Source: Syntrophaceae bacterium (GTDB lineage: Bacteria > Desulfobacterota > Syntrophia > Syntrophales > PHBD01). Taken from it: 64,000 nt of DNA. Made by a program: the position numbers and the translations under genes. The DNA lies in NCBI GenBank assembly GCA_013177825.1, contig JABLXX010000001.1, forward strand, positions 844,936 through 908,935. Reading direction: 5' to 3'. Shown here piece after piece: positions 48,687 through 49,961 of the stretch. Numbering within the stretch: position 1 is the stretch's first letter; every line of letters begins with the position of its first letter. The notes below the pieces were generated by a model, which did not search any database, had not been told where the DNA came from, and saw nothing but the letters and a program-made list of their open reading frames with translations.

Positions 48687-48761
48687 GGGCGGTTAACTCA
48701 GTGGGAGAGTGCTACCTTCACACGGTAGAAGTCACTGGTTCAAATCCAGTACCGCCTACCA
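48687..48761 (+). tRNA. tRNA-Val (anticodon CAC)
   Basis: A complete cloverleaf can be folded by hand: acceptor GGGCGGT/ACCGCCT (G-U at the end pair), D stem ACTC/GAGT, anticodon stem CTACC/GGTAG with loop TTCACAC, and T stem ACTGG/CCAGT around TTCAAAT. CCA is encoded. The anticodon CAC (48719-48721) reads GUG. The 3' half is duplicated at 49879, which marks this gene as the integration site of a small element. Confidence 0.95.
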
Positions 48762-48804
48762 TAAAAATCAAGGGGTTACGGGTCATGCCGGAACCCCTTT
48801 TTTC
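48722..48804 (+). repeat. attL-like direct repeat: tRNA 3' half plus terminator
   Basis: About 80 bp from ACGGT in the anticodon arm through the CCA end and the following AAGGGGTT...AACCCC terminator hairpin recurs at 49879-49961 with roughly seven differences. The two copies bracket 48805-49878. Confidence 0.85.
48771..48804 (+). terminator. Terminator of tRNA-Val
   Basis: AAGGGGTT pairs with AACCCCTT across a partly paired GC loop and ends in TTTTTT. Confidence 0.75.
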
Positions 48805-49124
48805 TTATCTGCTACCATTCGCCATCAATGGGCCATGGAACTGGATCCGGGCGATCGTCACGCCTCTCAACGCCTTGTGGATGTGTAGCCGAACCATGGT
48901 GCTATCGTTCATCTGTCCCCAGCCCCGTCTGCAACATCCGGATAACCGCCGTTCGGAAAGCGTGCCGGCTTCCCAAGCCGAATCGCCTGGACCAGGGCGG
49001 GTGAACCGTAGATGGTCCTGACGCTCTTCTTTGTCTTCGGCGAGAAGGAGCGTCCGTGATTGAAAGTTCGTCTTATGTGAATCTGTTTTCGTTCAAAGTC
49101 AACATCAGACCATCGGTAATGCAC
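48805..49124 (-). pseudogene. Tyrosine recombinase (phage integrase) remnant, frameshifted
   Basis: Read on the minus strand, 49124 to 48909 encodes 'YRWSDVDFERKQIHIRRTF' and 'SFSPKTKKSVRTIYGSPALV', matching the box around 'LRWSDVDF...PKTKSSVRTI' in phage integrases. About 48950-48925 the frame shifts: the other frame continues 'GQMNDSTMVRLHIHKALRG' and 'IARIQFHG', the region just before the HxLRH motif, then stops at 48805. The HxLRH box and catalytic Tyr are missing, and the 5' part is lost too. It reads towards the tRNA attachment site, the usual position of an integrase gene. Confidence 0.8.
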
Positions 49125-49183
49125 ACCTTTTGTACCCGCCGCATATCAACACCGTGTTCGGCAACGATTGGTTAAAATATGTC

Positions 49184-49212
49184 TTGACAGACAGGAGAAG
49201 TATATTTATAGA
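49184..49212 (+). promoter_or_regulatory. Strong sigma-70 promoter of the CxxC-repeat gene
   Basis: TTGACA (49184-49189) and TATAGA (49207-49212) are exactly 17 bp apart, in AT-rich DNA, 44 bp upstream of the start codon. It is the best sigma-70 match I see in the window. Confidence 0.75.
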
Positions 49213-49256
49213 AGCCCGAATTCATTAAAAATTTAGACAGTTTAAGGAGGGGTGGT

Positions 49257-49787
49257 ATGAAGAGATTCGCTGTTTCCGTATTTTTGATCATGTCGCTGTG
49301 TTTTTTGGTGTCATCGGCCTTTGGCGGCAGCGCTACAAGCCCGGGCGTCACGAGCCCCGGCGTTACCAGCCCCGGCGTTACCAGTCCCGGCGTTACCAGC
49401 CCCGGCGTTACCAGCCCGTCTAACAAGACGAACTGCAATACAGCGGCCGGCTTCCGTTTTACGAAATATAACGGAAAAGAAACATGTGTCCGTTGTGATG
49501 AGAAGTCCGGCTTCCGTTATACGACGTACAATGGCAAGGACTCCTGTGTGCGTTGTGATGAGAGGTCCGGCTTCCGTTATACGAAGTTCAACGGCAAGGA
49601 CTCCTGTGTGCGCTGTGATGAGAAGTCCGGCTTCCGTTATACGACGTACAATGGCAAGGACTCCTGTGTGCGTTGTGATGAGAGGTCCGGCTTCCGTTAT
49701 ACGAAGTTCAACGGCAAGGACTCCTGTGTGCGTTGTGATGAGAAGTCCGGTTTCCGTTATGATGGCAATAAAAGCTGTGTAAAATAA
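49257..49787 (+). CDS. Secreted tandem-repeat protein (TSPGV and 20-residue CxxC repeats)
   Basis: 176 residues; TAAGGAGGGG precedes the ATG. A signal peptide (about residues 1-23, ending SSAFG) precedes five perfect TSPGV pentapeptides (27-51), then from residue 65 five 20-residue repeats and a partial sixth. The repeat consensus is GFRYTxxNGKDSCVRCDE(K/R)S, each with one CxxC. Repeats alternate between a TTY/RS form and a TKF/KS form. The pairs of CxxC could bind metal or form disulfides. I do not recognise the family. It is the only intact gene inside the tRNA-bracketed element, with a strong promoter, and its AT content is higher than that of its neighbours. Confidence 0.8.
   Translation: MKRFAVSVFLIMSLCFLVSSAFGGSATSPGVTSPGVTSPGVTSPGVTSPGVTSPSNKTNCNTAAGFRFTKYNGKETCVRCDEKSGFRYTTYNGKDSCVRCDERSGFRYTKFNGKDSCVRCDEKSGFRYTTYNGKDSCVRCDERSGFRYTKFNGKDSCVRCDEKSGFRYDGNKSCVK
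49335..49409 (+). repeat. Five 15-bp tandem repeats encoding TSPGV
   Basis: Near-identical 15-bp units (ACCAGCCCCGGCGTT type) with third-position changes only in the first two. A typical site for slippage. Confidence 0.85.
49449..49787 (+). repeat. Five 60-bp tandem repeats plus a partial sixth
   Basis: Units start at 49449, 49509, 49569, 49629, 49689 and 49749 (partial). Units 2 and 4, and units 3 and 5, are almost identical, so the higher-order unit is 120 bp. The first unit is the most diverged. Confidence 0.92.
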
Positions 49788-49878
49788 ACAGGGAGACGGG
49801 ACGTTTATCCCGGTTCTCCAATGTATTTCCTTTTGTTTCTTGAGGGGTTATACCCTTAACGAATTCGAGAAGAGTTAT

Positions 49879-49961
49879 ACGGTCTAAGTCACTGGTTCAA
49901 ATCCAGTACTGCCTACCATGAAAATCAAGGGGTTACGGGTTATGCCGGACCCCTTCTTTTT
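49879..49961 (+). repeat. attR-like copy of the tRNA-Val 3' half and terminator
   Basis: It repeats 48722-48804 with changes such as CCGCC to CTGCC in the acceptor strand. The hairpin GGGGTTACGGG...CCGGACCCC with CTTTTT is kept and could also end transcripts of the minus-strand regulator gene. The 5' half of the tRNA is absent, so this is not a functional tRNA. Confidence 0.85.

Follow-up and report, generated by a model that had tools for sequence, protein, structure and literature searches.

Exported cysteine-rich repeat proteins are, as a broad kind, already known; what is new here is a family and its architecture. Choline- and glucan-binding repeats, which are 20-residue beta-hairpins, resemble the protein described below in that both have 20-residue one-hairpin units, are exported and vary in unit number, but it carries two cysteines per unit and the choline-binding repeats have none; neither type was among its Pfam matches at E ≤ 10. 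Closer in cysteine pattern are the TNF-receptor, furin-like and NCD3G modules (PF00020, PF07562 and the Fu repeats of R-spondin), exported tandem modules with a CxxCxxGY/F-type spacing like that of the window protein (the window being the whole 64,000-nucleotide stretch of Syntrophaceae DNA analysed here), and disulphide-braced rods are expected in both. Unlike these eukaryotic modules, the repeat protein is bacterial, has strictly uniform units of 17 or 20 residues, shorter than theirs and with one hairpin each, and bears a stalk of pentamers. The pentamer region scores 18.8 bits against the GLTT repeat (PF01744), below the cut-off of 21, a likeness of simple-repeat composition to a family that has no cysteine-loop part. 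The pentapeptide-repeat family, with its A(D/N)LXX beta-helix, was rejected: TSPGV, QSPSA, THAPS and HTPHG do not fit its consensus, and there is no Pfam match to it. Among animals, SCREPs are secreted cysteine-rich repeat proteins, likewise chains of repeated cysteine-rich domains (PMC6262176); they differ in having multi-disulphide domains, and no homology with them is claimed.

The gene for the window protein occurs once in the 4.24-Mb host genome (Table 1). A first-pass annotation, made from the sequence alone, had described five TSPGV units followed by five 20-residue repeats with CVRC and a partial sixth, and the open reading frame and TRF confirm this layout and its positions. The pentamers form an array of period 15 (49330–49417) and the longer repeats one of period 60 (49447–49760, 5.2 copies, score 495); the five complete repeats, each with CVRC, span residues 65–164 (49449–49748), and the partial sixth (49749–49784) reads GFRYDGNKSCVK. 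Read by its cysteines, the same region consists of C-x16-C units, the last one C-x13-C, with VR dipeptides as joints, giving a spacing of 17,3,17,3,17,3,17,3,17,3,14 and five CxxC pairs. Units 2-3 barely differ from units 4-5, the product of a recent 120-bp duplication, and unit 1 is separated from the others by a dS of 0.8–1.1 and a dN of 0.09–0.11. As the differences between units are mostly synonymous and homologues preserve the pattern, it is not due to chance. The n-, h- and c-regions of the predicted signal peptide are clear and conserved across family members, and the protein is very probably exported, as first proposed; no anchor or secretion signal was seen in it beyond the signal peptide.

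Table 1. Features of the repeat gene and the surrounding tRNA-Val locus (positions in the window)
Feature	Position	Strand	Basis or remark
tRNA-Val (cac), integration target	48687..48761	+	ARAGORN
Left att-like direct repeat: tRNA 3' half plus 42 nt downstream	48722..48803	+	repeat search
Decayed tyrosine-recombinase (integrase) fragment	48912..49145	-	PHROGs phrog_1
Sigma-70-like promoter (predicted), TTGACA-N17-TATAGA	49184..49212	+	
Shine-Dalgarno sequence AGGAGG	49245..49250	+	just 5' of ATG
Two-tier repeat protein, 176 aa, very probably exported	49257..49787	+	stop codon 49785-49787
Signal peptide (predicted), residues 1-23	49257..49325	+	from sequence; position conserved among homologues
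TSPGV x5, residues 27-51, then TSP remnant	49335..49409	+	
Cysteine-loop region: six closed units	49434..49784	+	Cys spacing; AF2 beta-hairpins
Hairpin past stop codon, possible terminator	49788..49824	+	-15.9 kcal/mol; T tract interrupted
Right att-like direct repeat, partial tRNA-Val	49879..49960	+	repeat search

With the window protein as sole query, two relatives were found in the same order, in a Smithella sp. and a Syntrophaceae bacterium (56% and 49% identity). A first scan of contigs with this protein alone gave no match, and a later profile gave two loci there. Profile searches for the repeat recovered homologues in several genomes of the phylum, adding genomes G350 and G499, which belong to a second and a third bacterial family, the latter genome with three tandem paralogues; members occur in nine of the 39 genomes of G350's family, and some of these carry two or three. 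Among 395 genomes drawn across the phylum there were only three matches at E ≤ 1e-5, that of the window genome included, so the protein family is patchy. That the family is real is virtually certain. Nearly all its members share one order of parts: a signal peptide, proline-containing tandem pentamers (TSPGV, QSPSA, QTPSA, QSPYV, QSPFV, QAPYV, HTPHG, QNPYA, THAPS or THGPY), and after these C-x14..16-C units with a dipeptide between one and the next, and 2n cysteines in all. The units have 17 or 20 residues, are of the type C-N-P-G-Y-x-Y-T-x-Y-x-G-x-x-x-C with VR, IK or LK as joints, and the region ends in C-VK or similar. In the two Smithella-type members the stalk is proline-rich but non-repetitive, and there are three units. 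The first annotator knew of no such family, and, homologues notwithstanding, none of the curated ones covers it: with no member did a convincing Pfam or NCBIfam family reach its curated cut-off, and literature searches found no description. The family with this signal peptide–pentamer–Cys-loop architecture has not been previously described.

Several candidates were set aside in the searches. Multiheme cytochromes (L018, L019, L022) among the phylum matches are CxxCH proteins and were dropped; the window family itself is not of this kind, since CVRCD, CIKCN and CLKCA stand where a c-type heme site would need His, and His never follows CxxC in any member, in keeping with the exclusion of c-type heme made at the outset. 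A match to phrog_19470 (E 1.3e-5) was discarded because it involves a stretch of 14 residues, and one to a Staphylococcus phage protein (26% identity, E 3e-3) was judged to be chance. As viral contigs, phages and plasmids held no convincing relative, a phage or plasmid origin is without support. Genome G564 carries two distant exported Cys-repeat paralogues that have no pentamers (L063:7837-12876), followed by exported-looking proteins of 195 and 1093 residues with no confident domains. An exported-looking protein of genome G487 (L017:1444-1854), with irregular CIRC...GWIYDGKSKC...CVK units, is possibly a distant relative in another family of the phylum.

All 14 complete members of the family have a strict spacing of 15,3,15,...,15 or 17,3,17,...,14, an even number of mature cysteines equal to 2n (6, 8, 10 or 12 for n = 3–6 units), and a cysteine run that opens and closes on a full loop. 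Because every run begins and ends on a long loop, the natural unit is the loop, and CxxC is the point where two loops meet. This closure fits a prediction of one disulphide per loop; as the 14 members are related, the parity is a matter of consistency and not 14 independent tests. The protein is under selection, as had been suggested from its retention beside a decayed integrase: homologues keep the architecture, and dN/dS (Nei-Gojobori, for pairs where it could be estimated, some with dS near saturation) is 0.08, 0.14, 0.16, 0.21 and 0.25, with 0.38 for tandem paralogues. Between syntenic copies of related species (L053/L058/L059 and L050/L052) the pentamers differ from one protein to the next and are nearly uniform within each, so that they show concerted change.

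Two AF2 models, one made from a single sequence with no relatives and one from three sequences (two of them relatives), both give one beta-hairpin per repeat at a pLDDT of 70–82, and leave the signal peptide and pentamer stalk disordered, mostly below 60. The top Foldseek neighbours of the first model, whose confidence is moderate, are TNFR1, RANK, osteoprotegerin and R-spondin (E 0.025–0.5 for TNFR1 and RANK); no match reached E ≤ 0.001, the second model gave nothing firm, and VIA-align returned none at Z ≥ 2. Fungal antifungal proteins are also among the very weak neighbours. By sequence, the neighbours are NCD3G (21.5–23.4 against a cut-off of 38.9), TNFR_c6 (11.1 against 29.4), the TNFR-like part of ELAPOR and R-spondin-1, all below thresholds. 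These weak neighbours, mostly disulphide-rich rods, support only a working like that of a disulphide-braced rod, and not membership in any of their families.

The setting of the gene in the window differs from that of its relatives. The att-like direct repeat is 82 nt long with 90% identity between its copies, which flank 1.16 kb holding only the repeat gene and a stop-ridden integrase fragment; the latter matches phrog_1 over about 47 residues (E 8.7e-7, about 48975–49115) and nothing in Pfam, so that the decayed integrase noted in the first-pass annotation is real but short. In the sister species (G001), the tRNA-Val is intact at the same position, the direct repeat occurs in a single copy, and the flanks, which align at 95% and 90%, are separated by about 14.8 kb of different DNA. 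As in tRNA-targeted integrative elements, a repeat of the tRNA 3' end is found at both sides together with an integrase, here decayed. Given the direct repeat, the integrase fragment and the single copy with other DNA in the sister genome, the region is an integration site, of which the window carries a small remnant element, and the repeat gene likely came in with it. The site appears to be a hot spot at which foreign DNA enters. By inspection, the segment in the sister species (L074:850-15635, G001:C34) encodes an ImmA/XRE-like protein, a methylase/restriction-like protein of 1128 residues, a SEC-C protein and acyl-CoA enzymes.

The proposal that the protein is the sole cargo of the element thus holds within the remnant, where it is the only intact gene, but not in general. 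The relatives are ordinary chromosomal genes at unrelated sites, and for this reason the cargo status is peculiar to the window genome; where their flanks are readable, no tRNA gene lies within about 5 kb. Nor are there conserved neighbour genes, except for synteny among close species and a GNAT acetyltransferase gene (L006:976-1464 and L007:964-1452) that follows the repeat gene after about 45 bp at both Smithella-type loci, where the two perhaps form an operon. An AbiV-type HEPN gene (L050:16417-17121) lies about 1.2 kb from one family member and has a counterpart near the syntenic L052 copy.

The gene is probably well expressed, to judge from its promoter-like and Shine-Dalgarno sites, as the first reading had supposed. 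Its promoter had been called the best sigma-70 site in the window; with 10 of 12 consensus matches it is joint best, three other sites scoring the same, and is the only one of the four that combines a perfect -35 box with 17-nt spacing. A promoter-scanning program omits it because its -10 box has no T at position 6. The perfect TTGACA with 17-nt spacing is shared by both Smithella-type genes and that of G350. Across 12 upstream regions of the family the summed promoter score is 112, against ≤99 in 300 dinucleotide shuffles, and five contain a promoter-like site reached by ≤2% of shuffles. Other members have GGGAGG- or AGGAG-type sites before the start, and the ribosome binding site is strong in nearly all.

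Whether hosts of the family could form disulphides was addressed in their genomes. DsbB was not found in nine genomes, and the Pfam VKOR model gave only two weak matches there, none over the cut-off; both belong to VKOR-like proteins whose genes adjoin a DsbA-like gene. With one of these as query, related proteins came up in 12 of the 14 genomes searched, among them the window host (E 5e-27), which overturned the picture of a host without an oxidant that Pfam VKOR had suggested. No match was seen in G499 or in G552, whose genome is 88% complete. The host protein (L094:379-1623, G000:C3) is a VKOR-like/DsbA-like fusion with CDTDC, CPFC and a thioredoxin-like domain containing FCPPC; Thioredoxin_4 is over its cut-off, and the closest PDB relatives are BdbD and DsbA. 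The Pfam VKOR model misses this fusion at E ≤ 0.001, and a divergent VKOR branch is present in most genomes searched. E. coli dsb mutants regain the ability to form disulphides when they are given natural VKOR-DsbA fusions (PMC12453122).

The best explanation, at roughly even odds, is that the protein is an exported disulphide-ladder rod on a proline-rich stalk, with a structural or adhesive role in the envelope or extracellular matrix. The predicted signal peptide would carry it across the inner membrane, where a periplasmic VKOR-like/DsbA-like oxidant would link both cysteines of each unit, turning the C-terminal half into a row of disulphide-closed beta-hairpins with dipeptide links; CxxC would then be a junction of two loops, and neither a redox nor a metal site. 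A stiff, basic rod would result (pI is 9.0–9.8 in 13 of the 14 complete members), mounted on a flexible N-terminal stalk of pentamers that would lengthen or shorten by whole units, and acting outside the cytoplasm. Disulphides are probably present, in a pairing that we infer from the loops; the rod shape and a location beyond the periplasm are suggested by the same anatomy. Since no neighbour is conserved beyond close-species synteny and the Smithella-type GNAT, function too is read from anatomy, and a structural or adhesive role is a tentative proposal, somewhat short of even odds. Against the rod stand the lack of any Pfam disulphide-module match over cut-off and of a significant fold match, AF2 models built from one and three sequences, the missing DsbB in nine genomes and VKOR-like match in two hosts, the want of an anchor or further secretion signal, and CxxC pairs that are also compatible with metal binding.

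Metal binding had been offered from the start beside a disulphide-linked surface fibre. In such a protein the CxxC of neighbouring repeats (CVRC, CIKC, CLKC) would be ligands of Zn(II), Cu(I) or some other soft metal, perhaps to buffer or scavenge it in the periplasm of cells living in sulphidic sediments poor in metal. The five CxxC pairs of the window protein, the hosts' want of DsbB and, in two, of the VKOR-like gene, and weak zinc-ribbon-like matches (one of them, Ribosomal_S27, over its cut-off at 25.2 bits against 22.3, in one homologue and summed over repeats) speak for it. Nevertheless it is unlikely: the cysteine number, 2n with n = 3, 4, 5 or 6, is often indivisible by four, so that four-cysteine sites would leave cysteines over at n = 3 or 5 (6 or 10 cysteines); the cysteines at either end lack a CxxC partner, no His is conserved, and most hosts have a VKOR-like oxidant. 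The disulphide option fits both the parity and that oxidant, and the surface fibre is an inference. Less probable still is an antimicrobial or competition peptide, secreted, cationic and stabilised by disulphides, in the form of a multi-repeat chain, despite the high pI, small size, export, cysteine richness and strong promoter and Shine-Dalgarno sites, a unit number that differs between species, and the antifungal proteins among the faint fold neighbours; no immunity or export gene was recognised adjoining a family member at any locus, selection is purifying and not diversifying, and a long stalked rod would be unusual for such peptides.

The near-identical units, homogenised within each protein, the K/R adjoining each CxxC and the GNAT gene directly 3' of both Smithella-type genes would suit a peptide precursor that undergoes processing or modification, with every repeat a core to be excised or cross-linked. 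This is quite improbable, as the signal peptide is of Sec type and not a RiPP leader, no modifying enzyme adjoins the gene at other loci, and the GNAT is not beside the window gene. A decaying or selfish passenger with no function, its reading frame grown by replication slippage, would account for a gene of mostly tandem repeats inside a decayed integration remnant and for the recent duplication, but is very improbable and already largely refuted by homologues with this architecture in further families of the phylum, a dN/dS well below 1, an intact frame and the presence of Shine-Dalgarno and promoter sites.

In its most far-reaching and improbable form, the disulphide-ladder rod would be a new type of extracellular rod in bacteria, a cell-surface or matrix protein of syntrophic and related anaerobes, with stalk and loop rod evolving in concert and a homogenised pentamer peculiar to each lineage, perhaps as a means of contact between partners or of recognising self in aggregates. 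Quite apart from this, what looked like a one-off repeat reading frame has turned out to be part of a defined family of proteins in anaerobic bacteria, one that offers a clear, testable structural prediction of one disulphide per loop. Such cysteine-rich exported proteins bear on whether these anaerobes make disulphides, with the VKOR-like/DsbA-like fusion of the host as the matching enzyme, and the homogenised pentamers of the stalk offer a natural example, on a small scale, of concerted evolution.
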